NCBI RefSeq assembly: GCF_028640845.1
Contig: NC_080546.1
Coordinates: 76,077,551 to 76,141,550, forward strand
Direction: 5' to 3'
From: Ahaetulla prasina
Lineage: Eukaryota; Chordata; Lepidosauria; Squamata; Colubridae
Length of the DNA: 64,000 bases
Shown here: positions 3,083-53,812 of the stretch, in pieces
How the letters are laid out: each line of letters starts with the position of its first letter
How positions within the stretch are numbered: position 1 is the first letter of the stretch
Notes under the pieces: model-generated
The model's input: the letters and a program-made list of their open reading frames with translations, nothing else
Databases searched by the model: none
What the model was told of the DNA's origin: nothing
Made by a program: the position numbers and the translations under genes

Positions 3083-3590
3083 TGTTGTGCCTGCACCCCC
3101 TGAGCCGGGCCTGCTGCCAGAAAGTGACTTGGACAGTGAGGAGGAAGGGCCGTCAGGACTTACCTCGGGAGCACCGGCTTGCCTGGCTCAGCTCCAGGAG
3201 CCAGAAACAGGCCAGGTGGAAGACATAACGAGGCCTCCATCCCCTGACTCTTCCCCCCCCCAGGCCACACCTGCAGACCCAGCTGATGGCAATCAGGCTT
3301 GGTTTCGTAGGCAGGAGAGGAGGGAACAACAGAAGCAAGGGTGGGGCAGGCCTAGGAAATGCTGAGTCATTGAGCCACACCCCACAGGATATAAAAGGCA
3401 GCCAGAGCTGCTGTGTCTCTTTGTAACAGGCAAATCCACTGATTAAGAGCTGAAGTTTGTTTCTAGGTGACTCACCAGCGTCGTGGAAGATAACGGAGGC
3501 TCTTGGCAGATGCTGGCTATTCTGCTGCCAGAGCTGATAGTGACGGCTAATTAAGCCATCATTCGGATGGAGGCGAGGGAGGACAGAACA
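3083..3590 (+). mobile_element. Solo LTR (508 bp), TGTTGTG family, subfamily 1
   Basis: It begins TGTTGTGCC, ends GGACAGAACA and is flanked by a perfect 5-bp duplication TGAGC (3078-3082, 3591-3595). No internal region is attached, so it is a solo LTR left by recombination. Promoter-like elements in order: TGAGTCA at 3363-3369 (AP-1 type), CCACACCCC, and TATAAAA near 3390. A near relative lies on the minus strand at 40410-40913. Confidence 0.9.
3087..3365 (+). CDS. Open frame inside solo LTR (acidic protein with basic tail)
   Basis: The frame is open from the first LTR bases and codes about 92 residues from a GTG codon; there is no ATG near the front. It is rich in Pro, Ser, Glu and Asp (PESDLDSEEEGP at about residues 11-22) and ends in a basic block containing FRRQERREQQKQGWGRPRKC. 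The stop codon is the TGA of the AP-1-like TGAGTCA. The same frame and the same basic tail recur in the other LTRs of this window, which argues that it was once translated, probably as the C-terminal extension of an upstream retrotransposon protein. As a solo LTR it has lost that upstream part. Function unknown. Confidence 0.45.
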   Translation: MPAPPEPGLLPESDLDSEEEGPSGLTSGAPACLAQLQEPETGQVEDITRPPSPDSSPPQATPADPADGNQAWFRRQERREQQKQGWGRPRKC

Positions 3591-4735: not shown

Positions 4736-4832
4736 GTATCATAGTCTTCCAAAAATGGTCACCAAAACAGGATTTGTAGTACCAGTGTGCTCTATCCCAT
4801 CACAATTCCCAATCACTCTTAAGCATATTAAC

Positions 4833-5106
4833 CAGTGGTGAAATCCAAATTTTTTTACTACCGGTTCTGTGGGCGCGGCTTGATGGGCGTGGTATGGTTT
4901 GGTGGGCGTGGCTTGGTGGCTGTGGTAAGGGAAGGTTGCTGCAAAATCTCCATTCCTACCCCACTCCAGGGGAAGGATATTGCAAAATCTCCATTCCCAG
5001 CCCACTCTGGGGCCAGCCAGAGGTGGTATTTGCCAGTTCTCCGAACTGCTCAAAATTTCTGCTACCAGTTCTCCAGAACCTGTAAGAACCTGCTGGATTT
5101 CACCCC
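4833..5106 (+). mobile_element. hAT-M1 element
   Basis: The ends CAGTGGTGAAATCC and TGGATTTCACCCC are inverted. The interior matches the 1668-1983 copy, with fewer of the 40-bp units. The flanking 8-mers (ATATTAAC and ATTAGAAC) agree only partly, as expected for an old insertion. Confidence 0.8.
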
Positions 5107-8674: not shown

Positions 8675-9414
8675 GTTTCAATAATTCCATTGTTGCCTCT
8701 GGCTGATGAAGATAACCACAGGAAGGATAGTGTGTTGTTTTTTTTCTTCTCTTGTTAATTTTACCTCTTTGAAAGCCAACATTTCTCCAATGTATTTCCA
8801 TTGGCTTTCACATTTGGCCTTACTCATAAGCCTGACTCCCAATTTTATTTTAGCTTTCTTGTTCTTTTGGTTTTGCACTTTGATCGTGATTAAAATAAGG
8901 TGAGTAATCTAGCCTTAATTCCACTGAGGCATTAATATCATAAAAAAGATAGGAAGGATTTTACGTGCTTTGGAGGAATGAATATTATTAGATTGGATGG
9001 GCGCATTTATTTAATTTCAAGATTTTCTATTGATGCAGGATATTAAAAATAAACAAGTTTAGCAGGTGGCAAAAATGTGAGAACTGTGACCTAGTTAAGC
9101 TTCCAGAGTATTCCAGAATATCACACCAGATATTCAATTTCAGACTGCCTTTTATGTCTTGTTATGCGCTTTAACCTTCTGCTTAAGACTAGGGCAGCAC
9201 ACATAAATGATTATTGATCGTCATCTGCATGTGTAAATATCATATCAACAAAACAAATAATAGGCTCTCTCAGAATTGCTAGAAGTCAACACAAGGACAG
9301 AAACACACATCTCTTCATATGAACTGATGTTGACTGATGAGGAAAAAGATCAATAATTTGTTAAGACGCTAGTATTTTTGCTGTATATTGCCCATAAGCA
9401 GTCCATGTCCTTAG
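8675..9414. other. No recognised feature
   Basis: AT-rich sequence with no supported gene or repeat. Confidence 0.5.
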
Positions 9415-10010
9415 TGTTGTGATCCACCAGCAGCCTGTGGAGCCGGCAGCAGAGTCAGAAAATGAGGAGGCTGGGGAGGACAATGGGTCAGTCCTGGAGT
9501 CAGGGGAAGGTCTAGATGAGGACTCTGCATCAGAGGCAGAGATGGGGCCAGGGCCATCTGGGAGCGATGCACGGACTCCGGAACCTCCAGAGGCAGACAG
9601 CAGAGAGGCAGACGAACAAGAGGAGCCTGTTCCTAGTGCACACATGCAAAGAGCTGCCAGAAGGCAAGAGCAGCTAAAGCAAAAAGGACGACTTGGGAGT
9701 AAAGCCAGGAGATGATTGGCTCCTCCCATAAGGCTTAAAAGAGCAGCAACGGCACTTGGGCTCGTTGTAGGAAAGCAACGTTGCTACAATTGTTTCTTGT
9801 CGGCATCTCCTGTTTCTGAACTTCGTGGAGTTCTTGCCAAGAAAAGCCTTTGGCAGGGTGCCAAAGAAAACAAAAGTTTGTGATAAGGCCAAAGGACTTT
9901 TTCTGAAGGATTTTGTTTTGGAATTAATTTGGACTAAGCTGAGAATGAAGTAGTTTTCAGCTGTTCTAATAAAATATGTTTGTTTAGGACTGATTGTGTC
10001 TGGTAATAAC
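9415..10010 (+). mobile_element. LTR, TGTTGTG family, subfamily 3 (3' end damaged)
   Basis: It starts TGTTGTGATCC and aligns along most of its length with the intact LTR at 44469-45086, including CCCATAAGGCTTAAAA (promoter) and GCCAAGAAAAGCCTTTGGCA. The expected CACAACA end is missing and there is no target duplication partner for CTTAG, so the 3' end was lost or diverged. Confidence 0.75.
9416..9715 (+). CDS. Open frame inside LTR (acidic protein with basic tail)
   Basis: About 98 residues are open from the LTR start with no early ATG. An acidic Glu/Ser/Asp stretch (residues about 10-75) is followed by AARRQEQLKQKGRL and a short Arg/Lys end. It aligns over its whole length with the frames at 44473, 53578 (minus) and 39796 (minus). 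It is likely a remnant of a retrotransposon protein reading into U3; function unknown. Confidence 0.4.
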   Translation, partial: VVIHQQPVEPAAESENEEAGEDNGSVLESGEGLDEDSASEAEMGPGPSGSDARTPEPPEADSREADEQEEPVPSAHMQRAARRQEQLKQKGRLGSKARR

Positions 10011-10345
10011 TATAAGAAGAATATTGTGATGAAGAGGGGATATAAATGTGTTCTCCCTTTATTTTTTCCTCCAATTTGCTACCTATATGCATGTAAATGT
10101 AAATAACTCATATCTTCAAGTCATTCTATTACTTGTATGTGGGCTCTCATGTTCTTTTTGAGAAATGCAGTCCTCAGTCCCCAAATACTCTCATTACCCT
10201 CCAGCCCATTGTATATACTTAATAGGTAATGTGTAATTGATTTTAAGTTAAATAGAAATCCTAAAAGCCAACAATGCAATCCTATTCTAATGTATTTAAG
10301 ATGAGATCTTGTGATGTGCCCGGCAGCATCCTAGGAGCCAAATAA

Positions 10346-11929: not shown

Positions 11930-12109
11930 TTAGTTGTTTTAAGAGATTTTTTAAGGGGAGTTTTAATGGGGATTTTAAGGGTTTGGAAGGGGGGGGAGGG
12001 ATTCGACGGGTAGGGGAGAGAACCCGTTGGGAGGGGTGGGAGGTTAGGCGGGTATTGGGAGTAGCCCGGGTGGGAGCCAGTCCTTGCGCGCGCTCGTGGC
12101 GGTTCAGTA

Positions 12110-13678
12110 ATGGGTTCGGAGGTTATAGGGGGGAGTTGCGTTCCTTTTGGTGAGGGTGGTTCCATTTGCACGGTAAGTGGGAGGGGCAGATATGGCGGAA
12201 GGGGGGGACCGTATCGTTCTGGGGGGGCGCGCGCTCGATGTCTGCAGGCGATCGCGCGCCCCGATCCCCCTCCCTTCTCCCGTTCCCCGGATGGTCAAGA
12301 CCCTCAGAGCCTGGGCCTTCGTCTGATGTTATGCAACGCACGGTCCGTGGCCGATAAGGCCCCCCTAATACATGATCTGATTCAAGGGGGTGCCGCGGAT
12401 ATTATAGGCGTTACGGAGACCTGGTTGGGCACTGAAGGGGGCGTGCCCCTGGTCGAGATGTGCCCACCGGGTTTCCGTGCATTCCATCAGCCGAGGGCCC
12501 AGGGCAGGGGTGGGGGGGTGGCGGTTGTTATTAAAGAGAGTCTAGAGCCGAGAGAGACCACTGTACCTCAGATTGCCGGGTGTGAATCCCTCTTTGTGAG
12601 GTGGGGTCATAGGTGTCAGATGGGCTTGCTGGTCACGTACCTGGCTCCTTGCTGCGTGACAGCCGCCCTGCCCGAGCTCCTGGAGGTGCTGGCTGGGGTG
12701 GCAGTTGAGACCCCCAGACTTTTAGTCATGGGGGATTTTAACTTGCCATCTTCCGGCTCGTCATCGACGGCAGCTCGGGAGTTCATGGCTTCCATGACGG
12801 CCTTGGACCTGACCCAAGTAGTTGATGGCCCTACTCACATTGGGGGTGGCACTCTGGACCTGATTTTTCTCTCTGGTCAGTGGTTGAGAGATCTGGACTT
12901 AAAGGAAATAGTCACTGAACCTTTGTCATGGTCAGATCACTCTCTTCTTCGCCTGGACTTTCTGACCGCCATTCACCACCGCAGGGAGACGGAGCTGATA
13001 CGTTGGTTCTGTCCCAGGCGCCTGATGGACCCGGATGGGTTCCGGACGGAGCTTGGGCCATTTCCTGAGGGTCTGGCTCACGGCTCGGCTGAGGAACTTG
13101 TTGCGGCCTGGGAACGGGCCGCGGCGGGGGCCTTAGACCGTGTCGTGCCTTTGCGGCCTCTGACCCGGCGCAGGTCCCAACCGGCTCCTTGGTTTTCCGA
13201 GGAGCTGAGAGGGATGAAGCGCCGGAGAAGACGCCTAGAGAGTTCCTGGAGGTCTAGCCGTTCGGAAGCTGATCGGACACTAGTGAAGTCCTATACTAGG
13301 ACTTACCTAGTGGCATTGAGGGAAGCGAGGCGTAGCTGCGCCTCCTCCCTCATTGCATCGGCAGATAACCGCCCAGCCGCCCTGTTTCGGGTGACTCGCT
13401 CCCTCCTACACCAGGGGGAGCGGGATGACCCGTTGCAGGGACGTGCTGAGGAGTTTAACGGTTATCTATACGATAAAATCGTTCAGCTTCGGGATGGTCT
13501 GGACCAAGATTGCGGTGACACGGGTGAGATGCTCGAGGGTGGTCTTGGCGATATTGTTTGGGATGAGTTTGACCCTGTGGCTCCCGAGGACATGGACAGG
13601 TTGTTGGGTAGGCTGAATGCCACCACGTGTTTACTGGACCCGTGCCCTCCTGGCTGGTGCTGGCCACTCGGGAGGTGA
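12110..13678 (+). CDS. L2 endonuclease frame, intact, truncated before RT
   Basis: 522 residues from an ATG. Residues about 70-285 form an apurinic/apyrimidinic-type endonuclease that nicks target DNA in LINE retrotransposition. LMLCNARS holds N76, VTETWLG holds E103, VMGDFNLPSS holds D209 and N211, and LSWSDHSLLRLDF holds D276 and H277, so all main catalytic residues are present. Residues about 290-500 are the linker before the reverse transcriptase (MKRRRRRLESSWRSS basic region, then the REARRSCASSLIAS and DPLQGRAEEFNGY segments). The frame ends at 13678 because a frameshift near 13620-13680 throws it out of the RT frame. It is a LINE protein, not a host AP endonuclease; the 40-50 N-terminal residues are low complexity and the true start may differ. 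Confidence 0.85.
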   Translation: MGSEVIGGSCVPFGEGGSICTVSGRGRYGGRGGPYRSGGARARCLQAIARPDPPPFSRSPDGQDPQSLGLRLMLCNARSVADKAPLIHDLIQGGAADIIGVTETWLGTEGGVPLVEMCPPGFRAFHQPRAQGRGGGVAVVIKESLEPRETTVPQIAGCESLFVRWGHRCQMGLLVTYLAPCCVTAALPELLEVLAGVAVETPRLLVMGDFNLPSSGSSSTAAREFMASMTALDLTQVVDGPTHIGGGTLDLIFLSGQWLRDLDLKEIVTEPLSWSDHSLLRLDFLTAIHHRRETELIRWFCPRRLMDPDGFRTELGPFPEGLAHGSAEELVAAWERAAAGALDRVVPLRPLTRRRSQPAPWFSEELRGMKRRRRRLESSWRSSRSEADRTLVKSYTRTYLVALREARRSCASSLIASADNRPAALFRVTRSLLHQGERDDPLQGRAEEFNGYLYDKIVQLRDGLDQDCGDTGEMLEGGLGDIVWDEFDPVAPEDMDRLLGRLNATTCLLDPCPPGWCWPLGR

Positions 13679-16784: not shown

Positions 16785-17245
16785 TTTTTTTAATTGAAAA
16801 AGTTTTACAAAAATTCCCCCCTTTCCCACCACCCTACCTCCCCCTCCCCCCTCCCTTCACAACCACCACCACCCCGACTTCCCGGAACAAACACAAGGTA
16901 TAGTTAAAAATAAAACAAACATATGCTAAAAAAATTTCCCTCCCAACTCAATTATACCCCTACAATTCTCATCAGTTCCTAACTTCCCCCAAAACAATCA
17001 GAAATAATACATCCTAATCATTCAAAGGCAGTCTGATAACTCTTAGTCTGATATCTACTTTGAATATAGTCAATCCATTTTTTCCATTCCTTTAAGTATC
17101 TTTCTTGCGTATTGTCTTTCAAAAAGGCTGAGATTTTTGCCATCTCAGCCAAATTAGCAACTTTCAATATCCATTCTTCTATTGTAGGTACTTCTTTTTT
17201 CTTCCAATACTGTCCTATCAGTAATCTTGCCACTGTTATTAGATT

Positions 17246-17996
17246 CAAATTTCTGGGTTCTATCATATCGCAAGATCTCAAATGGACAGCTAACATCAAA
17301 AACATCATTAAAAAAGGACAACAAAGAATGTTCTTTCTGCGCCAACTCAGTAAGCTCAAACTGCCCAAGGAGCTGCTGATCCAATTCTACAGAGGAATTA
17401 TTGAGTCTGTCATTTGCACCTCTATAACTGTCTGGTTCAGTTCTGCAACCCAACAAGAAAAACACAGACTTCAGAGGATAATTAGAACTGCAGAAAAAAT
17501 AATTGCTACCAACCTGCCTTCCATTGAGAACCTGTATACTGCACGAATCAAGAAGAGGGCCGTGAAAATATTTGCAGATCCCTCGCATCCTGGACATAAA
17601 CTGTTTCAACTCCTACCCTCAAAACGACGCTATAGAGCACTGCATACCAGAACAACTAGACACAAGAACAGTTTTTTCCCGAAGGCCATCACTCTGCTAA
17701 ACAAATAATTCCCTCAACACTGTCAGACTATTTACTGAATCTGCACTACTATTAATCGTTTCATAGTTCCCATCACCAATCTCTTTCCACTTATGACTGT
17801 ATGACTATAACTTGTTGCTGGCAATCCTTATGATTTATATTGATATATTGATCATCAATTGTGTTGTAAATGTTGTACCTTGATGAACGTATCTTTTCTT
17901 TTATGTACACTGAGAGCATATGCACCAAGACAAATTCCTTGTGTGTCCAATCACACTTGGCCAATAAAATTCTATTCTATTCTATTCTATTCTATT
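17246..17996 (+). mobile_element. L3/CR1 (Snake1-type) LINE 3' part inside L1
   Basis: The frame ending at 17708 encodes the RT C-terminal part: FLGSIISQDLKWTANIKNII, LKLPKELLIQFYRGIIESVI, RLQRIIRTAEKII and KRRYRALHTRTTRHKNSFFP. The 3' UTR ends CAATCACACTTGGCCAATAA followed by (ATTCT)n. Possible degenerate target duplication TTAGATTCAA / TTAAAATCAA. 5'-truncated; the remaining reading frame is open. Confidence 0.9.
17970..17996 (+). repeat. (ATTCT)n microsatellite at L3/CR1 tail
   Basis: About five units directly continue the LINE tail, the known snake pattern of CR1 tails seeding AATAG/ATTCT microsatellites. Confidence 0.9.
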
Positions 17997-21187: not shown

Positions 21188-21768
21188 TGTTGTGTCTCAT
21201 CCGATCTCACCACCACAGCCGGGGTCTGCTTATCTGCTTCCGAACACTGAAGAATGTCCTAGCATGCCTCCTGGCCCCAGCCCTGGCTCCATGCCCAGAC
21301 AGGCTGAGGAGGGGGCATCTCCCAGCCCCAGCCCTGGCTCCATGCCCAGACAGGCTGAAGAAAAGCAAGTATCTCCAGCCCCCAGCTCTGGCTCCATGCC
21401 CAGGCAAACGGAGCAACTAGACCCCTCCCCCTCCTCCACAGCATGTGAGCCTGAGGAAGGTTTATTACCAACAGCTGCCGATTGGAGTGACCCTCGCTTC
21501 AGAAGAATTGATAGGCGGCGGCGTCAGAAGGAAGGGAGGGGCAGGCCTGGATAAGTGCTGAGTCATGGAGCCACACCCCATGGCCTATATAAAGGATCTG
21601 CTTTCTGGCATTCTCTGAGTCAGGCAAAGTCTAAACATATCTTGCTGAAGTCACTTTCTGGTCTCCTGCTTGCCCTGAGGACTTTGCTAGGACTTTGGCA
21701 GAGCTGCAGAGGCACACCTGATTCGGATTTCCCTGACCCGGCCGTCAGCGGAGGAGTGGGACACGACA
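21188..21768 (+). mobile_element. Solo LTR (581 bp), TGTTGTG family, subfamily 2
   Basis: TGTTGTGTCTC to GGGACACGACA, flanked by a perfect 5-bp duplication CCTAT (21183-21187, 21769-21773). It has TGAGTCA at 21559-21565 and TATATAAA at 21586-21593. Close relatives are at 37481-38053 and 38244-38768. Confidence 0.93.
21189..21554 (+). CDS. Open frame inside solo LTR with GSMPRQ repeats
   Basis: About 121 residues are open from the LTR start (the frame also runs on upstream into the host MITE by chance). It contains three imperfect repeats of an 18-19 residue unit with the core PSPGSMPRQ(A/T)E, then LLPTAADWSDPRFRRIDRRR and a GRGRPG end. The repeat units keep the frame (multiples of 3 bp). It aligns with the 37485 and 38764 (minus) frames, and in its basic end with subfamily 1. 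Unknown function; inferred U3-encoded C-terminal part of a retrotransposon protein. Confidence 0.4.
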   Translation, partial: VVSHPISPPQPGSAYLLPNTEECPSMPPGPSPGSMPRQAEEGASPSPSPGSMPRQAEEKQVSPAPSSGSMPRQTEQLDPSPSSTACEPEEGLLPTAADWSDPRFRRIDRRRRQKEGRGRPG

Positions 21769-27093: not shown

Positions 27094-27368
27094 CAGAGGT
27101 GGGCTTCAGCAGGTTCTGACCAGTTCTGGAGAACCGGTAGCGAAAACTTTGAGTAGTTCAGAGAACCAGTAATAAAAATTCTGACTGGCCCCGCCCCCAT
27201 CTATTCTCTGCCTCCCGAGTCCCAGCTGATCAGGAGGAAATGGGGATTTTGCAGTAACCTTCCTCTGGAGTGGGGAGGGAATGGAGATTTTACAGTATCC
27301 TTCCCCTGCCACACCCACCAAGCCACACCCACAGAACCGGTAGTAGAAAAATTTGAAACCCATCACTG
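27094..27368 (-). mobile_element. hAT-M1 element
   Basis: CAGAGGTGGGCTTCAGC to AAACCCATCACTG, flanked by TTTTACTG and CTTTACTG (7 of 8). It is the reverse orientation of the 1668 copy, with two of the internal units. Confidence 0.9.
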
Positions 27369-27572
27369 CTTTACTGCCCTGAAAAGTATGACCCTCTTCT
27401 TTCGGATGCAGATGAACTGCTGACTCCTGTCCTGAGGAGTTTGTTCATTTGTGCATTTGTGATGGGGTTGTTTTGTTTCCTTAATGTACAGACACGTATG
27501 TATGACACGTGCAGACTTAACAAAAACTAACACCATAGGAAACAGAATTTGGAATGTAAGTCAAGATAAACA

Positions 27573-35244: not shown

Positions 35245-35575
35245 CAGTGGTGGTGTAATGTATCTTTAAACTTTAGGAGGGAAGTTTGGGTGGGAACAAG
35301 CACGTTGCTGATTGGTTGAAGCCTCAGCCAATATTGTATATAAAGAGGGGTTTTTGCCGGGTGTCTTTTGCTGGGTTCACTATAAACTAAAGAGCTGTTG
35401 TCACTCACTGGTCTCCTGCCTCTTTATTGCCCGAATCTAACAGGTGGGATTCAAGTAATTTAACAACCGGTTCTCTGCCCTAATGATTTCTTCCAACAAC
35501 CAGTTTGCCAAACTGTTCAGAAAGTTAACAACCAGTTCTCCCGAAGTGGTGCGAACTGGCTGAATCCCACCACTG
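35245..35575 (+). mobile_element. hAT-M2 MITE split by a solo LTR
   Basis: The left 9 bp CAGTGGTGG (35245-35253) are separated from GATTCAAGTAATTTAACAAC by a 189-bp LTR. The right end CCCACCACTG is at 35575. The MITE's own duplication is GTTATCAC (35237-35244) / GTTGTCAC (35576-35583), 7 of 8. Confidence 0.9.
35254..35442 (+). mobile_element. Short solo LTR (189 bp)
   Basis: TGTAATGTATC to CGAATCTAACA with a perfect 5-bp duplication GGTGG made from the MITE terminus (35249-35253, 35443-35447). TGTATATAAAGAGG at about 35335 is a TATA box. A different family from the TGTTGTG LTRs, with no frame inside. Confidence 0.88.
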
Positions 35576-36809: not shown

Positions 36810-37428
36810 CAGAGGTGGTATTCAGCTGATTCTGATTGGTTCTGGCGAACTGGTATCAGAAATTTTGAATAGTTCGGAGAACCAGCAAACACCACCTCTG
36901 GCTGGCCCCACCCCCAATCTATTCGCCGCCTCCCAAGTCTCAACTGATTGAGTCTCAGCTGATCGGCTGGGTCTTCTTTTGTTGTCCTGCACAGGAGAAC
37001 ACAGCTGGAAAGAAGGTTAGTGGGGTGGGGAGGGAATGGGGATTTTGCAGTATCCTTCTCCTGGAGTCAGATGGGAGTGGAGATTTTGCAGTATCCTTTC
37101 CCTGGAGTGTGGTGGGAATGGGGATTTTGCAGTATCCTTCTCCTGGAGTGGGGTGGGAATGGAAATTTTGCAGTACCCTTTTCCAGGAGTGGGGAGGGAA
37201 TGGATATTTTGCAGTATCCTTCTTCTGGAATTGGATGGGAGTGGAGATTTTGCAGTATCCTTTCCCTGGAGTGTGGTGGGAATGGAGATTTTGCAGTATC
37301 CTTCTCCTGGAGTGGGGAGGGAATGGGGATTTTGCAGTATCCTTCACCTGCCATGTCCACCAAGCCATGCCACACCCACCAAGCCACGTCCACAGAACCT
37401 GTAGTAAAAATTTTGAATCCCACCACTG
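36810..37428 (-). mobile_element. hAT-M1 element with expanded minisatellite (619 bp)
   Basis: CAGAGGTGGTATTCAGC to GAATCCCACCACTG, perfect 8-bp duplication GTTACTAG (36802-36809, 37429-37436). Twice the length of its relatives because of the internal array. Confidence 0.95.
37041..37368 (+). repeat. 41-bp minisatellite, eight units
   Basis: GATTTTGCAGTATCC-type unit starts at 37041, 37082, 37123, 37164, 37205, 37246, 37287 and 37328, all exactly 41 bp apart, with point differences only. 41 is not a multiple of 3 and the units lack stops, which explains long shadow frames in several phases. Confidence 0.97.
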
Positions 37429-37480: not shown

Positions 37481-38053
37481 TGTTGTGTCTTGTCCGCTCT
37501 CACCGCAGCCGGGGTCTGCTTATCTGCTCCCGAACACGGAGGAATGTATGCCTCCCGGCCCCAGTCCTGGCTCCATGCCCAGACAAGCTGCAGAGGAGGG
37601 GGCACCTCCCGGTCCCAGCCCTGGCTCCATGCCCAAGCAGGCTGCAGAGGAGGGAGCATCCCCCGGCCCCAGCCCTGGCTCCATGCCCAGGCAAACGGAG
37701 CAGCTAGACCCCTCCCCCTCCTCCACAGCATGTGAGCCTGAGGAAAGTTTACTTCCAACAGCTGCTGATTGGAGTGACCCTCGCATCAGAAGACTGGATA
37801 GGCGGGGGGAACAGAAGGAAGGAGGGCAGGCCTTAATGAGTGCTGAGTCATGGAGCCACACCCCATGGCCTATATAAAGGATCTGCTTTCTGGCAGTCTC
37901 TGAGTCAGGCAAAGTCGAACTTATCTTGCTGAAGTCACTTACTGGTCTCCTGCCTGCTCTGAGGACTTTGCTAGGACTTTGGGCAGAGCTGCAGAGGCAA
38001 GCCTGATTCGGATTTCCCTGACCCGGCCGTCAGCGGAGGAGTGGGACACGACA
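37481..38053 (+). mobile_element. Solo LTR (573 bp), TGTTGTG family, subfamily 2
   Basis: TGTTGTGTCTT to GGGACACGACA, perfect 5-bp duplication GTAAT (37476-37480, 38054-38058). TGAGTCA at 37844-37850, a CCACACCCC box, and TATATAAA at 37871-37878. Confidence 0.95.
37482..37877 (+). CDS. Open frame inside solo LTR with three GSMPRQ repeats
   Basis: About 131 residues, open from LTR nucleotide 2. Three tandem 18-residue (54-bp) units with core GPSPGSMP(R/K)Q, then ACEPEESLLPTAADWSDPRI, RRLDRRGEQKEGG and an extra tail caused by a small frame change near the end. No ATG near the front. Same frame register relative to the LTR start as the other copies. Confidence 0.4.
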   Translation, partial: VVSCPLSPQPGSAYLLPNTEECMPPGPSPGSMPRQAAEEGAPPGPSPGSMPKQAAEEGASPGPSPGSMPRQTEQLDPSPSSTACEPEESLLPTAADWSDPRIRRLDRRGEQKEGGQALMSAESWSHTPWPI

Positions 38054-38243: not shown

Positions 38244-38768
38244 TGTCGTGTCCCACTCCTCCGCTGAGGGCCGGGTCAGGGAAATCCGAATCAGGCGTGC
38301 CTCTGCAGCTCTGCCAAAGTCCTAGCAAAGTTCTCAAGGCAGGCAGGAGACCAGGAAGTGACTTCAGCAATATAAGGTAGACTTTGCCTGACTCAGAGAA
38401 TGCCAGAAAGCAGATCCTTTATATAGGCCATGGGGTGTGGCTCCATGACTCAGCACTTATCCAGGCCTGCCCCTCCCTTCCTTTTGTTGACGCCGCCTAT
38501 CAATTCTCCTGACGCGAGGGTCGCTCCAGTCTCCAGCTGTTGGTAATTGACCTTCCTCAGGCTCACATGCTGTGGGGGAGGGGAGGGGCCTAGTTGCTCC
38601 GTTTGCCTGGGCATGGAGCCAGGGCTGGGGGCTGGAGGCACTTCTTCTTCCTCGGCCTGTCTGGGCATGGTGCCAGGGCTGGGGCCTGGAGGCATGCCAG
38701 GACATTCCTCAGCCTTCAGAAGGAGATAAGACGGGCCCGGCTGCGGGGAAAGCAAATGAGACACAACA
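38244..38768 (-). mobile_element. Solo LTR (525 bp), TGTTGTG family, subfamily 2
   Basis: Reverse complement of the same family: TGTCGTGTCCCACTC at left, GAGACACAACA at right. TGACTCA at 38446-38452 and a reverse TATA at about 38418. No convincing 5-bp duplication (GGTAG / GTGTC). It forms an inverted pair with 37481-38053. Confidence 0.88.
38450..38767 (-). CDS. Open frame inside minus-strand LTR, two GSMPRQ repeats, frameshifted end
   Basis: Open from the LTR start. It has two PSPG(T/S)MPRQ units instead of three. The final part (LRKVNYQQLETGATLASGE) is out of phase with the LLPTAADW-RRIDRR end, which continues in the 38457-38705 frame, so a small indel lies near the repeats. Confidence 0.35.
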   Translation of the reverse strand, partial: VVSHLLSPQPGPSYLLLKAEECPGMPPGPSPGTMPRQAEEEEVPPAPSPGSMPRQTEQLGPSPPPQHVSLRKVNYQQLETGATLASGELIGGVNKRKGGAGLDKC

Positions 38769-39458: not shown

Positions 39459-40057
39459 TGTTCTGACCTAGGCTCCCTTAAAAAGCAGGAAGCAGAGTTT
39501 TAGCCCCGACACAAGTTCTTTTATTTACATGACTGTGAATTACTTTCATTCATAATCAACAAGGCTTGTCCAAACAGTTTTTCAAAGGAATATTTATGAA
39601 CACACCTTACCTCGCTTGGCAAGCTGCCACGTAACTTTTTTCCAAACGCAGAGTAAAGCAAAACTTGGCACAGAGTCTCTTAGAGTCATGAACAGAACTT
39701 TCCACTCTTGAAATGACCGACCGAACAAACAAATTGTTTCCTGCAAAAGCCCCCTCCCTGTTCGCTTCTCTTTTGTTTCCTATGGGAGGGGCCAATCATC
39801 TCCAAGATGTGGCTTTAGTCCCAAGTCGACCCTGCTTTCTGAGTTGTTCTTGTCTTCTGGCAGCTCTGTGCATCTGCACACTGGGAACGGGCTCCAGGTG
39901 TTCCTCTGCCTGACTGCTGTCTATCTCCCTCTCTGCCTTCGATGCAAAGCCCTCATCCAAGCTTTCCCCAGCCCCCAGGATTGGCCCATGTTCCTCCCCA
40001 ATCTCCTCACTGTCTGACTCTGCTGCCAGCTCTGCTGGCCACTGGCGGGCCACAACA
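39459..40057 (-). mobile_element. Solo LTR (599 bp), TGTTGTG family, subfamily 3
   Basis: TGTTCTGACCTAGG at left and GGCGGGCCACAACA at right on the plus strand. The minus promoter region reads GGGAGGGGCCAATCA (CCAAT box) in the plus sequence near 39783. The flanks GCATT/ACATA match only 3 of 5. The closest relative is 46117-46698. Confidence 0.88.
39796..40056 (-). CDS. Open frame inside minus-strand LTR (acidic protein with basic tail)
   Basis: About 86 residues from the LTR start, with an AAESDSEEIGEEHGP acidic part and AARRQEQLRKQGRLGTKATS end. A stretch in the middle is shorter than in the 44473 frame, a deletion that keeps the frame. Confidence 0.4.
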   Translation of the reverse strand, partial: VVARQWPAELAAESDSEEIGEEHGPILGAGESLDEGFASKAEREIDSSQAEEHLEPVPSVQMHRAARRQEQLRKQGRLGTKATSWR

Positions 40058-40409: not shown

Positions 40410-40913
40410 TGTTGTGTCTCTGTCTCACTCTGGAGTAATGAGCTGGCCTTCAGCCAGTGGATATACAGCTCTTATCAGTCCTGGCGGGAAAAGGGAAAAC
40501 ACAGCTGCCTGCCAAAAAGTTCAAACAGATTAAGACTTCAGCTCACTTCGACATGGTTCAGCTAATTTGCTTCCCATAGAACTGAAAGCAGTCCCAAAAC
40601 TCTTTATATATCCTGTGGGGTGGGGCTCCTGCCCCACCCTTCCCTTTGATGACGCCGCCTCTCTAATCTTCTGAAGTGTGGCTTGATCCAGGCTTGATTA
40701 GTATGATTATCAGCTGCATCTGTAAGCGTAGCCTGAGGAAGGGAGGAATCAGGGGATGTTGGCCTCATTATGTCCTCTGACTGGCCTGGTTCTGGCTCCT
40801 GGAGCCGGGCCAAAGGAATTGGTGCTCCTGAGGTAAGCCTTACCGGCCCTTCCCCCTCACTCTCAGAGTCACTTTCGGGCATGGGGCCAGGTTCGGAGGC
40901 TGGAGCCACAACA
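40410..40913 (-). mobile_element. Solo LTR (504 bp), TGTTGTG family, subfamily 1
   Basis: TGTTGTGTCTCTGTC at left, GGAGCCACAACA at right, perfect 5-bp duplication ATGGC (40405-40409, 40914-40918). The reverse TATA box is in CTTTATATATCC at about 40600. Confidence 0.95.
40604..40912 (-). CDS. Open frame inside minus-strand LTR (acidic protein with basic tail)
   Basis: About 102 residues from the LTR start: PESDSESEGEGPVRLTSGAP, ARLQEPEPGQSEDI, RPTSPDSSLPQATL, then HFRRLERRRHQREGWGRSP. It aligns over its full length with the frame at 3087-3365 although the two LTRs differ widely, which favours past selection on the protein. Confidence 0.45.
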   Translation of the reverse strand, partial: VVAPASEPGPMPESDSESEGEGPVRLTSGAPIPLARLQEPEPGQSEDIMRPTSPDSSLPQATLTDAADNHTNQAWIKPHFRRLERRRHQREGWGRSPTPQDI

Positions 40914-41822: not shown

Positions 41823-44463
41823 ACAGTTATAATTCATTAATTTCTTCAAAAAAGCATAGAAATAATAATAAACAGTTTTCTCCTAAGCATTGCAAAAGAC
41901 CTTAGCAAGCTGAGAATAAATTACAGTTTAGTAGGTGATTAGGATACTGAATTAGAACCAATGCATCCAGTCTCTTTTTTTCTGTATTTTTATATTTTAT
42001 ATTTGGATAAAATAATGAAAGGCATGTTGCAAGGATATCAATCATTTTCTCCTTCAGAGATAAAACTGATTTTGAATGAAATATACAGAATTGAACTATT
42101 TTTAAACGCCTTTTAGTTTTAAATATTAATATATGGGTGATTAATGTTGTAAAATGGGAAATGCAAAGCCAGTCCAGTCCGGGTATCCAGCAATGGTAAA
42201 TTAATTTGATACCGTATATAAAAACATAAATAATGATCATGAGAGACCACAAGACCACATTGACAGAAACTATGCATATAGAGATAAATCGGCGTTTCCC
42301 TTCAGTTTTGGTTCAAAGTGACTATAAAATATAATGTTGTTAAACTGTACAGTGAAAGAAGAGTGATTGCAATATATGGAAAATAAAGATTAAGCTTAGC
42401 ACAATTTCAAGTTAGACATGTACACTTTTCTGCTTAAGTAATAGATGTTTGATTGATTTCCTTATGGTTCAGTTCACCTGCTTTTATTTATTTTTTTCTT
42501 TTCTGAAGTTCCAAATCAAACTAAACTCTGAAGGACTTCACAGCTTTCTCTTTTGTCTCCAGCGTAGCACCCAAAGCCTTGTTCCCTCTTTCTTTCCCAG
42601 GATTTCTTTTTTCTTCAAAGCCCCTTCATGCAGCTTTTTTGTATTTTGTAAAGAAGGGGATTCAAAGTCTTGAATGTCTGAATCCATTTGGCATGAGAGC
42701 TTGAAATAGGTTTGTAAGTGTCGGTATGGTGACTGCAGGCTGGTCTTCATATCCCTGGCAAAGTTAGGGAACAAAGCAATAAAGGTATGACAAAGATCAG
42801 TACATATCATGCTGATACACTTTTTTTTGGCCAACACAATGGTGAGTGGATAGCAGTATAACTTGGAAATGAGAAAAGGCAAATTATGCCGGGACCGACA
42901 GAAAGCCTTCCCCTGTGTAACTGGAAAGCTAGCTAGACTTACAGATGGATTCTTTTAAACTGTCTCATTCTGATTTCTTTAGAACCTTAAACTTTTATCT
43001 GGCACTGAACTGTGGTTTGAATAGAAGGGCAGCTGAAGGTACAAGATGTTAATATCAAAAAGTCACAAGTACCAACAAATGGCCTCTATCAACCATCTGG
43101 CTGTCAATGCCCTGACTAGCAAACCCAAGCAAAGTAGATGCTCTCAGGAACTTTGAAATTCCCAAAGCAAAACTTTATTGGAGATACCATTTCGGTACTG
43201 AAGAATCAAAACCAACTCTGTTCCTTTCCCACGCAATGCCTGTATAGTTAAACAATAGCTTTTCTTTCTTCTACCCTTGGTTGCTCACATTGTCCAATTA
43301 TGAATCGTACTTTTGTTTGGAGAACTTTACACTTTTCTGTCAGACACCTGAATCAGTGGCCTTGGAGGGTTCTTGGTTCTCATGGTCCATCTCTAACATG
43401 TCTGCATCCTTTTTACCTTTCCCTTATTCCGCCCCCTCCCCCCAGTTCTTTGGCAAACTGAATAGCGATAAAACTTAAACGTTTCAAAAGCTGTTCAACC
43501 TTGACAGCTAAACTAGCTGCCACTTCAAAATTCCTTTTTTTTCCCTCAGATAACCAAGTGACTTAAATAGTAAAAATTATTTCAGTCTTTACTTCTTATT
43601 TGCAATATAAATTCCTTTATGCTATGTACTAAAATCCAGCTGTGACTCTAAAGTAAGTCATATACTATGGTATGAGTAGAGAGGGGAGATAAACTGAGAC
43701 AACACAAGTAAAAGCAGTCCTCGTATCCTTCTATTGATTAGCTATCAGTATAGAATATAACAACATTGCATCTTGTTTTCCTCCAGCCTACCATATGTTT
43801 TCAGAATATAACTCTTTAATCTATTTGAAAGTAAAGACCACAGTCAATTTGGGGGAAATGAAGTAATACAGCTAATAAAAAAAAATACAGCATGCAATTT
43901 TAAGCTACAGTGAACTGAATAAAATATGGATCAAGAGTTTGCAATTTTTTATGAAACCCATTAATCTTACTAATGATTTATTGGCCGTGGTGAGTATTTC
44001 ATTGCATAAAAAAAATTGATCTATGCTGCTGTATTTCTGTATGCATGCTTTTATGATAACTGCAGGGGTTCACTGGCTTAATATGTTCCTTATCTTTCTT
44101 TAAAAAGTCGACTACAAAAACAAATGTGATTTATGGTTGCAAATAGCCTAACTGGTTTATCTCACTTCTCAAAAGAATAATCAATACTTGAACAGCAGCT
44201 TCCTTTTACTAACAAGAGAAAGTAATAAAAATAAATAAATAAAACTACACAGGGGGAAAAAGCAATTTTTTTTCTTTTATTGAATGAAAAAGGTTTGTCT
44301 CAAGATAAGATTTACATTTAGAATGCTTTTACAATTTTGGGGTGGCAGTGATTTTCCAGGATACGTGGGAGGCATCCAATGGCCTTACTCCACAGATTGT
44401 CAGATGCAAGGTGATGTTTCTTAAATTGGGCATCAGGAGAGGTCAGCTAGGGCTGTTGCTATT
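41820..44463. other. No recognised feature (2.6 kb unique-looking)
   Basis: The longest stretch without a repeat I can name. Moderate AT content, scattered short open frames, no splice-flanked exon or conserved protein that I can identify. Confidence 0.5.
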
Positions 44464-44468
44464 GTACC

Positions 44469-45086
44469 TGTTGTGATCCGCCAGCAGCCTGCAGAGCTGG
44501 CAGCGGAATCAGACAGTGATGAAGTTGAGGAAGAACATGGGCCAGTCCTGGAGGCTGGGGAAGGCCCGGATGAGGGCTCTGCATCGGAGGCAGAGATGGG
44601 GACAGGGCCATCGGGGAGTGATGTGTGGACTCTGGAGCCTCTAGAGGCTGACAGTAAAGAGGCAGAGGAACAGGAGGAGCCTGTTCCTAGTGCATGCATG
44701 AGAAGAGCTGCCAGAAGGCAAGAGCAGCTCAAGCAAAGAGGACGACTCAGGAGTAGGGCCAAGAGATGATTGGCCCCTCCCATAAGGCTTAAAAAACCAG
44801 CAACGGCTCTTGGGCTCTTTGTTGGAAAACAACGTTAATAGACTTGCTACATTTATTTCTTGTCGGCGGCTCCTGCTTTTGAACTTTTGCCAAGAAAAGC
44901 CTTTGGCAGTTTGCCTAATTAGACCAAGGTGGGTGATAAGACTGAAGAATTGTGTTATGAAGAATTTGTTTTGAATTAGTTTGGACTATGCTGAGAATGA
45001 GTTTAATTCTCAGCTGTTCTCATCAAGTCTGTTTGTTTTCAAACCGATTGCATTTAATCATACCTACTTGGGCCTGGGTCACAACA
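44469..45086 (+). mobile_element. Solo LTR (618 bp), TGTTGTG family, subfamily 3
   Basis: TGTTGTGATCC to CTGGGTCACAACA with a perfect 5-bp duplication GTACC (44464-44468, 45087-45091). The promoter region has GATGATTGGCCCCTCCC (CCAAT box) and a CTTAAAA TATA-like element. It is the reference for the damaged copy at 9415. Confidence 0.95.
44470..44769 (+). CDS. Open frame inside solo LTR (acidic protein with basic tail)
   Basis: About 99 residues from LTR nucleotide 2: AAESDSDEVEEEHGPVLEAG, EGPDEGSASEAEMGTGPSG, EEQEEPVPSACMRRAARRQE, then QLKQRGRLRSRAKR. First half strongly acidic, end strongly basic. The frame ends just before the CCAAT/TATA promoter part. The parent element is absent. Confidence 0.45.
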   Translation, partial: VVIRQQPAELAAESDSDEVEEEHGPVLEAGEGPDEGSASEAEMGTGPSGSDVWTLEPLEADSKEAEEQEEPVPSACMRRAARRQEQLKQRGRLRSRAKR

Positions 45087-45605: not shown

Positions 45606-45883
45606 CAGAGGTGGGTTTCAGCAGGTTCTGACTACCAGTTCTGGAGAACCGGTAGCGGAAATTTTGAGTAGTTCAGAGAACCTGTAGTAAAAATTCTGAC
45701 TGGCCCCGCCCCCATCTATTGTCTGCCTCCCAATTTCCAGCTGATCGTGAGGAAATGGGGATTTTGTAGTAACCTTCCCCTGGAGTGGGGTGGGAATGGA
45801 GATTTTACAGTATCCTTCTCTGGCCACGCCCACCAAGCCACACCCACAGAACCGGTAGTAAAAAAATTTGAAACCCACCACTG
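45606..45883 (-). mobile_element. hAT-M1 element
   Basis: CAGAGGTGGGTTTCAGC to AAACCCACCACTG with a perfect 8-bp duplication GTCAGAAG (45598-45605, 45884-45891). Two internal units. Confidence 0.95.
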
Positions 45884-46116
45884 GTCAGAAGATCCAGAAA
45901 ATGGCAGATAGCTTTCAGTTCAACCGATATGCTGCTCTGTCAATAGATTACATAGAATTCCTCTATTTTCAGAGTAGAAATAAATTCATAAGGGAAAAAA
46001 AACCAGATTACAATAGGAACAGATACTAATTAGGGACACATTCTAACTCAGGCAGATCCATGATGGATGACAAATTTTGGGACTTACTAAGCAGCCTACC
46101 TTTCACATAAATATTA

Positions 46117-46698
46117 TGTTGCCCGCCAATGGCCAGCTGAGCTGGTAGCAGAGTTGGACATTGAGGAGGTTGAGGAGGAACATGGGCCAGTCCTGGGGGC
46201 TACAGAAAGCTCGGACACGGGCTCTGCGTTGGAGGCAGAGAGGGAGCTACAGCAGTGAGGCAGAGGAACAGCTGGAGCCCGTTCCCAGTGTGCAGATGCA
46301 CAGAGCTGCCAGAGGACAAGAACAACTCAGAAAGCAGGGTCAACTTGGGAGTAAAGCTACACCTTGGAGATGATTGGCCCCTGCCACAGGAAACAAAAGA
46401 GAAGTGACTGGGGAGGAGGCTTTTGCAGGAAACAATTCATTCGTTCGGTCGTTGCAAGAGTGGAAAGTTCTGTTTGAGACTCTTTGCCAAGTTTTGCCTT
46501 ATACTGTGTTTGGAAACAAGTTATGTGGCAGCTTACCAAGTGAGATAACGTTTGTGTTGATAAATATTCCTTTGAAACACTGTTTGGACAGGCCTTGCTG
46601 ACTGTGAATGAAAGTAATTCACAATCGTGTAAATAAAAGAGGATTTGCAGGGACCAAGACTCTGCCTCCTGCTTTTTAAGGGAGTCTAGGTCAGAACA
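46117..46698 (+). mobile_element. Solo LTR (582 bp), TGTTGTG family, subfamily 3
   Basis: TGTTGCCCGCC to CTAGGTCAGAACA. The relative at 39459 (minus) shares the end. The flanks TATTA/ATTTA match weakly. The U3 frame is open to a TGA near 46259 and resumes one phase over (EAEEQLEPVPSVQMHRAARG at 46260-46330), so it is a decayed copy. Confidence 0.85.
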
Positions 46699-50345: not shown

Positions 50346-51232
50346 ACACTTTAGGAGAAACCCTTCCATACTTCCACCTCTCACAATACTAGACAACACA
50401 GTATCAACAGTAGAAACCTTTAAATTTCTAGGTTCTATCATATCACAAGATCTAAAATGGACAGCTAACATCAAAAACATCATTAAAAAGGACAACAAAG
50501 AATGTTCTTTCTGCCCCAACTCAGAAAGCTCAAACTGCCCAAGGAGCTGCTGATTCAGTTCTATAGAGGAATTATTGAGTCTGTCATTTGCACTTCTATA
50601 ACTGTCTGGTTCGGTTCTGCAACCCAACAAGAAAAACACAGACTTCAGAGGATAATTAGAACTGCAGAAAAAATAATTGCTACCAATCTGCCTTCCATTG
50701 AGGACCTGTATACTGCACGAATCAAGAAGAGGGCCGTGAAAATATTTACAGACCCCTCGCATCCTGGACATAAACTGTTTCAACTACTACCCTCAAAACG
50801 ATGCTATAGAGCCCTGCACACCAGAACAACTAGACACAAGAACAGTTTTTTTCCCGAAGGCCATCACTCTGCTAAACAAATAATTCCATCAACACTGTCA
50901 AACTATTTACTGAATCTGCACTACTATTAATCTTCTCTTAGTTCCCATCATCAATCTCTTTCCATTTATGACTGTATGACTATAACTTGTTGCTGGCAAT
51001 CCTTATGATTTATATTGATATATTGACCATCAATTGTGTTGTAAATGTTGTACCTTGATGAACGTATCTTTTCTTTTATGTACGCTGAGAGCATATTTAT
51101 TTATTTATTTATTTATTTTATTAATCATATTTATATACCGCCCTATCTCCCGAAGGACTCATATGCACCAAGACAAATTCCTTGTGTGTCCAATCACACT
51201 TGGCCAATAAAAATTCTATTCTATTCTATTCT
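50346..51232 (+). mobile_element. L3/CR1 (Snake1-type) LINE 3' part
   Basis: Starts near AGGAGAAACCCTTCCATACT. It has FLGSIISQD-type and LKLPKELLIQFYRGIIESVI coding and shares most positions with the 17246 copy. 3' UTR with CAATCACACTTGGCCAATAA and (ATTCT)n at 51208-51232. Interrupted by an L2 tail at 51097-51164. Confidence 0.9.
51097..51164 (-). mobile_element. 68-bp L2 tail insertion inside L3/CR1
   Basis: (TTTA)n, then ATATACCGCCCTATCTCCCG and AAGGACT. Flanked by CATAT (51092-51096, 51160-51164). The empty-site sequence GAGCATATGCACC is seen in the other L3/CR1 copy at about 17913. Confidence 0.9.
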
Positions 51233-53238: not shown

Positions 53239-53812
53239 TGTTGTGCCTTAAAATGGCTTCGACTGTACAGCACAATGGAGTTGCCATGGTAAAAGCTTCA
53301 CAGTACTCCACAAGGGAACTTTATTCGAACAGCTGGGAATTACTTCATTCCCAGCGTCGTTCAACTCAAAGAAAAACAAATGCCACCCAACACAAATTCC
53401 TCAGTTATCTAACAAGCCTTAGTCCAATTAGGCAAACTGCCAAAGGCCTGGCAAATGTCCAAAAGCCATAAAAACAAAGACATACACGAATCAGAAGACA
53501 GAGCAGCCACAACGTTGTTTTCCGGCAAAGCTGAAACACCGCTGCTGGTCTGTTTTAAGCCTTATGGGAGGGGCCAATCATCTCTTGGCCATACTCCCAA
53601 GTTGTCCTCTCTGCTTAAACTGCTCTTGCCTTCTGGCAGCTCTTCTCATACATGCATTAGGAACAGGCTCCTCCTGTTCCTCTGCCTCACTACTATCAGT
53701 CTCTGGAGGCTCTGGAGTCCGCACCTCACTTCCTGATGGCCCTGGCTTCACCTCAGCCTCATCGCTGTCCGACTCCATTGTCAGCTCCGTAGGCTGCTGA
53801 TGGACCACAACA
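53239..53812 (-). mobile_element. Solo LTR (574 bp), TGTTGTG family, subfamily 3
   Basis: TGTTGTGCCTTAAAATGGC at left and TGGACCACAACA at right. CCTTATGGGAGGGGCCAATC near 53562 is the reverse promoter region. The flanks CAGCC/TTTGT do not match. Confidence 0.85.
53578..53811 (-). CDS. Open frame inside minus-strand LTR (acidic protein with basic tail)
   Basis: About 77 residues from the LTR start; MESDSDEAEVKPGPSGSEVR, ETDSSEAEEQEEPVPNACM, then RRAARRQEQFKQRGQLGSMA. Shorter than the 44473 frame by an in-frame deletion of the first acidic part. Confidence 0.4.
   Translation of the reverse strand, partial: VVVHQQPTELTMESDSDEAEVKPGPSGSEVRTPEPPETDSSEAEEQEEPVPNACMRRAARRQEQFKQRGQLGSMAKR

Follow-up and report, generated by a model that had tools for sequence, protein, structure and literature searches.

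Solo LTRs usually pass for noncoding DNA and serve as neutral clocks. In the window analyzed here, a DNA stretch of 64,000 nucleotides, an open reading frame begins at the very edge of LTR after LTR. We asked whether the parent elements used this frame to encode protein and, if so, what kind of protein it would have been.

Ten LTRs in Three Subfamilies

The window contains 10 LTRs, each named here by the position of its first nucleotide, which form three subfamilies. Subfamily A has five members: 44469 (positions 44469-45086, forward strand, 618 bp, with TGTTGTG and CACAACA termini), 9415 (9415-10012, forward, 3' end placed by profile match), 53812 (53308-53812, reverse, 3' end unmatched), 40057 (39459-40057, reverse), and 46117 (46117-46698, forward, 85% identical to 40057). 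Subfamily B consists of 3083 (3083-3590, forward, 508 bp) and 40913 (40410-40913, reverse, 504 bp), and subfamily C of 21188 (21188-21768, forward, 581 bp), 37481 (37481-38053, forward, 573 bp), and 38768 (38244-38768, reverse, 525 bp, no exact target site duplication). A short fragment at 35317-35421 (forward) matches positions 376-480 of the subfamily C profile (E = 0.00047), outside the coding part. Nine of the 10 LTRs start with TGTTGTG, 46117 being shortened, and the clearest 3' termini are CACAACA or CACGACA. In addition to these TG...CA ends, an exact 5-bp target site duplication is found around five copies (TGAGC at 3083, GCCAT at 40913, GTACC at 44469, CCTAT at 21188, and GTAAT at 37481), whose lengths range from 504 to 618 bp; the remaining five are diverged, truncated, or without an exact duplication. 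As the exact duplications flank single LTRs, these five copies are solo LTRs. Together, the LTRs represent remnants, at least five of them solo, of a group of LTR retrotransposons that is probably Ty3/Gypsy-like; the 5-bp duplication is only compatible with membership in Ty3/Gypsy (Metaviridae). A 41-bp minisatellite of ~9-10 units lies at 36981-37385, beside the 37481 LTR, and related units are present near 1665-1848, 4826-5007, 27233-27371, and 45751-45885, one of these sites being located ~0.7 kb behind the 44469 LTR.

A Reading Frame Open from the LTR Edge

We counted the frame in codons from LTR nucleotide 2, which is the same frame as that starting at nucleotide 5. An earlier sequence-only reading had named nine copies in which it is open from the edge, and all nine are indeed open, over 77-131 codons: 99 in 44469 (44470-44769, including the TGA stop), 99 in 9415 (9416-9715), 77 in 53812 (53811-53578), 86 in 40057 (40056-39796), 93 in 3083 (3084-3365), 102 in 40913 (40912-40604), 121 in 21188 (21189-21554), 131 in 37481, and 105 in 38768. 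The tenth copy, 46117, had been described as starting alike but frameshifted, and its frame stops after 46 codons. In each of the 10 LTRs, the other two same-strand frames read from the edge are shorter than this one. Compared with 44469, the frame of 53812 has a 66-nt in-frame gap, and that of 40057 has a 45-nt in-frame gap and a 6-nt in-frame extra stretch. The frame reaches the stop of its subfamily in six copies (3083, 9415, 21188, 40057, 44469, and 53812). 40913 lacks 22 bases around the subfamily stop. Relative to 21188, 37481 carries a frame-breaking two-base deletion near the end of the frame and 38768 a one-base deletion midway, so that their terminal residues are non-ancestral and the full extent of their open frames is in part fortuitous.

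The frame product is Pro/Ser-rich and acidic, with a basic end. Of the acidic body and basic end that had been claimed, the former is present in all nine named copies (pI 4.1-5.2 ahead of the last 25 residues), but the basic end is strong in only seven of them, in which the last 25 residues have a pI of 11.7-12.0; the exceptions are 37481 (6.8) and 38768 (9.2). For the six copies reaching the subfamily stop the values are 4.1-4.4 and 11.7-12.0, respectively. A Pfam scan of eight of the 10 encoded tails at E values up to 1 returned a single, non-significant match and no chromodomain. The GRGRP at the end of the C tail resembles what we take to be an AT-hook core; we do not claim it as an AT-hook, as Pfam gave no such match.

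The mouse mammary tumor virus (MMTV) sag and foamy-virus bel genes are encoded in U3 of the 3' LTR and have start sites of their own. In a similar way, U3 of the present elements could encode a separate small accessory protein, translated from a spliced or internally started RNA, and an acidic body with a basic end would suit a nuclear regulator. Such a gene should possess a conserved start codon of its own. The claim that no early ATG is conserved holds for the group as a whole, there being no start codon common to A, B, and C and no in-frame ATG anywhere in the 3083 frame; in this the snake LTRs differ from the MMTV and foamy-virus genes. The claim fails within C, where in-frame ATGs near codons 23-26 and 32-35 are common to all three copies, in line with an accessory gene, and the four open A copies have one late ATG in common, just before the basic block. 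A start inside U3, however, would not need a frame that is open to the very edge, and we regard a separate accessory protein as unlikely. Openness to the first codon, together with the lack of a start codon common to A, B, and C, instead favors a last open reading frame that continued into the 3' LTR of the parent elements. We consider this run-in reading the probable one, although with some reservation, and infer that the frame in question was most likely pol.

Substitutions and Gaps Follow the Frame

Alternatively, the frame could be noncoding and open simply because a GC-rich U3 contains few stops, as the long antisense frame in A (133 codons at 44469 and 140 at 9415) might suggest. We addressed this with a permutation that shuffles the substitutions between two copies while keeping each within its own class of base and CpG context. 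The main test used exact LTR ends, the downstream control of earlier runs having included some flanking bases, and covered 365 codons in four independent pairs (44469/9415, 40057/46117, 3083/40913, and 37481/38768). As three of these eight copies are broken, the pairs were read column by column in the subfamily frame, and gapped codons were dropped. We found 1 stop where 7.4 were expected (p = 0.004) and 95 amino acid-changing codons where 120.6 were expected, with none of 1000 shuffles as low, which argues against an effect of base composition. When the same pairs are read in the first copy's own frame, there are 0 stops versus 6.0 expected (p = 0.0023) and 96 changed codons versus 122.4 (0 of 3000 shuffles); the stop count differs between the two readings because one pair, read in the own frame of a broken copy, hid one stop. 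In a second pair set, which is perhaps not wholly independent, 0 stops versus 5.3 and 101 changes versus 125.4 were obtained. Further against a noncoding origin, neither stops nor changes are depleted in the other two sense frames inside the region, and two of the three antisense frames likewise show neither effect. Third codon positions differ at 91 of 373 sites in the four pairs, compared with 108 of 741 at positions 1 and 2 (p = 5 × 10^-5), corresponding to a change rate 1.7 times higher.

Downstream of the stop, changes are mildly depleted in one of six frames (97 versus 108.6, p = 0.010), and the amino acid test alone is thus not perfectly clean. Stops there are below expectation at p < 0.05 in three of six frames (30 versus 35.3, 25 versus 31.6, and 21 versus 27.8). 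Given these downstream depletions, single p values near 0.01 are not reliable. Subfamilies B and C supply most of the amino acid signal. In A, changes are depleted at p < 0.05 in two of six tested pairs, the main pair 44469/9415 has 27 changes versus 28.4 expected, and three of four comparisons with 44469 show fewer changes at codon position 1 than at position 2.

The sequence-only reading had suggested comparing frame-breaking indels inside and outside the frame and determining whether dN/dS lies below 1. We counted gaps as distinct runs in the three subfamily alignments, such runs not being strictly independent events. Inside the frame, 10 of 13 runs have a length divisible by three, compared with 4 of 26 outside, in line with coding; with the gap across the stop counted, the inside value becomes 10 of 14, and p ranges from 0.0003 to 0.0007. 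The three inside runs of other lengths are each private to one broken copy. In-frame gaps could also arise in noncoding DNA from repeat units, and subfamily C does carry units of 51/54 nt, but if its in-frame gaps are removed and its two frame breaks are kept, 6 of 9 gaps are still multiples of three (p = 0.04). The dN/dS ratios gave a divided answer: NG86 values are below 1 in all 14 pairs (0.25-0.66), whereas the other two methods reach ~1, with YN00 yielding 0.56-1.17 in the five of 14 pairs that gave values and maximum likelihood 0.34-1.09 in 11 of 14, dS running away in the other three. The YN00 values near 1 in some pairs would suit a noncoding frame. The highest NG86 ratio (0.66) belongs to a close pair with one broken copy, as expected if decay follows insertion.

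The permutation of stops and changes, the codon positions, and the gap lengths together support the earlier claim of an LTR frame that encoded protein in the elements of origin. Overall, the frame behaves as a selected coding frame in U3, open from the LTR edge; the signal is weak for A alone. We conclude that the LTRs contain a real coding frame, for which support is good in B and C and moderate in A, and that a noncoding origin is improbable. Still more improbable is that, at least in A, the true coding frame is the antisense frame sharing the wobble position, as its stops are at or above expectation (14 versus 12.4; 13 versus 10.8 and 15 versus 13.1 in earlier runs) and it extends beyond the LTR in 9415 and 44469, reaching flanking DNA, while its depletion of changes, which about equals that of the sense frame overall (94 versus 116.8) and reaches p < 0.05 in four of six A pairs versus two of six, is accounted for by wobble positions common to both frames, through which depletion in one yields depletion in the other. 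The antisense open frames over the A coding part, at 44433-44834 (reverse, 133 codons) and 9361-9783 (reverse, 140 codons), are probably a shadow.

Stop Codon and Promoter Layout

In all three subfamilies the stop codon touches or slightly precedes promoter-like motifs. In 44469, ATTGG begins on the last base of the stop and is followed by CCCCTCCC and a TATA-like CTTAAA (44769-44793); CTTAAA is present in three of the five A copies and absent from 40057 and 46117. In 3083, the TGA stop forms the first three bases of TGAGTCA, from which CACCC lies 12 bp and TATA 27 bp on (start to start). The stop of 21188 begins 7 bp before TGAGTCA, which is followed by CCACACCCC and TATATAA in the same motif order as in 3083, and 40913 lacks TGAGTCA. 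We take ATTGG, CCCCTCCC, CTTAAA, TGAGTCA, CACCC, CCACACCCC, and the TATA motifs to have promoter meanings. As the stop adjoins them, U3 would be composed of a coding part and of what looks like a core promoter, arranged end to end, so that the stop falls within or next to a motif of regulatory appearance.

Two pairs of subfamily C copies show differences at 40 of 353 and 40 of 309 sites within the coding part, against 9 of 216 for the remainder of the LTR. The coding part thus diverges about three times as much and evolves faster overall, synonymous sites included. C copies in addition differ by whole units of 17-18 codons, of which 21188 contains ~3 and 38768 one fewer.

Relatives of the Encoded Tails

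B and C are related at the DNA level, and their tails score 6.1 and 6.9 s.d. above shuffles in the same frame, other frames reaching up to 6.6. The A tails compared with those of B and C score 1.0-2.8 s.d. above shuffles in the same frame in five of six comparisons; in the sixth, the same frame is not among the five best frame pairs. With same-frame scores this low and antisense frames scoring alike, homology of the A tails with the B and C tails is not established.

A protein search with the 44469 tail found no relative among seven candidates, and none of 474 candidate proteins of polyprotein length carries such a tail. Among 305 candidates of polyprotein length, the 21188 tail matched no polyprotein; its single match, and the only database relative, is a bone morphogenetic protein 2-like isoform X1 from Ahaetulla prasina (P0001, E = 9.6 × 10^-10). 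In this predicted protein, 57 residues correspond to a stretch of the subfamily C frame; with gaps included, 50 of the 75 positions in the alignment are identical to 37481. The match points to the presence of related LTRs in a snake, which gives indirect support to a snake origin of the window, and to a possible use of subfamily C LTR sequence as an exon, in frame, of the predicted gene model; it is not evidence that bears on pol. Protein and DNA-pattern searches of viral contigs and searches of prokaryote genome contigs gave no full-length or coding relative, and say little since these collections are viral or prokaryotic. The original proposal had two forms, entry of the last protein into the 3' LTR and an accessory protein encoded by U3. 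It is supported with regard to coding, but its two forms are not separated by a full-length element in these searches.

We also scanned seven of the 104 stop-to-stop open reading frames of at least 100 codons in the window with Pfam. Three have endonuclease/reverse transcriptase domains, two match ALKBH8_N, and two are without a match; with seven of 104 scanned, a decayed internal piece of the element elsewhere in the window is possible. A 537-codon open frame at 12065-13675 (forward) with an endonuclease/exonuclease/phosphatase domain is LINE-like and long for a decayed copy. The ALKBH8_N frames, at 17073-17705 and 50487-50927 (both forward; 57 and 34 bits), are LINE-like by their repetition within the window.

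Discussion

In the Ty3/Gypsy gene order, pol ends with integrase, and U3 upstream of the TATA box occurs in element RNA only at the 3' end. The frame is consequently readable only at the end of a genomic or spliced RNA. With pol running into the 3' LTR, translation would pass the polypurine tract into U3, and the last open reading frame would stop some 235-365 bp into the 3' LTR, just ahead of the core promoter. The ~80-120 codons contributed by the LTR would encode an acidic, Pro/Ser-rich and probably disordered linker with a short Arg/Lys-rich end, and would represent the C terminus of the last polyprotein, probably integrase. A C-terminal integrase tail of this kind would serve nuclear import, DNA contact, or target site choice, and by analogy a localization/targeting module of integrase is our likely guess. 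It is tempting, although we consider it unlikely, to extend this to squamate LTR elements that keep a fast-evolving integrase targeting tail inside the LTR, with solo LTRs recording its past variants. If so, the faster coding divergence and the changes in repeat number of subfamily C would suit a tail that changes its host partner.

A selected protein in about half of the LTR would bias both LTR dating and repeat annotation, and numerous solo LTRs might in that case document the evolution of a retroelement's protein tail. LTR pieces may moreover supply in-frame host exons, as suggested by the predicted snake BMP2-like isoform.

We compared the snake LTRs with other elements in which coding sequence enters the LTR. 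In plant CRM chromoviruses of group A, the polyprotein is reported to extend into the 3' LTR (PMC3059260); for the snake elements, run-in is the probable layout. The same report describes a 5-bp target duplication and inverted LTR ends, as found here, and places the variable end of integrase, with its CR motif, in the LTR-coded part. CRM group A LTRs end in TGATG/CATCA, while the snake LTRs start with TGTTGTG; the host here is an animal, and the eight tails scanned gave no chromodomain match. In the beet Reina-clade chromoviruses Bingo1-4 and Bingo7, the gag-pol open reading frame is reported to extend into the flanking LTR, with a chromodomain before the polypurine tract (PMC3605345); we liken them to the snake elements by layout and not by sequence comparison. 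Among the titles and abstract openings listed, subscription journals not included, none mentions a vertebrate element with an open reading frame entering the 3' LTR. The layout is already known from plant elements, and within this coverage the host group is apparently new. With regard to function, the C-terminal part of Ty1 integrase is described as a disordered end that combines a targeting domain with a bipartite nuclear localization signal, and that of Ty5 integrase as containing a targeting domain (PMC9673352). By these descriptions, the Ty1 and Ty5 integrase ends may provide a functional parallel for the snake tails, which would likewise be the ends of integrases.
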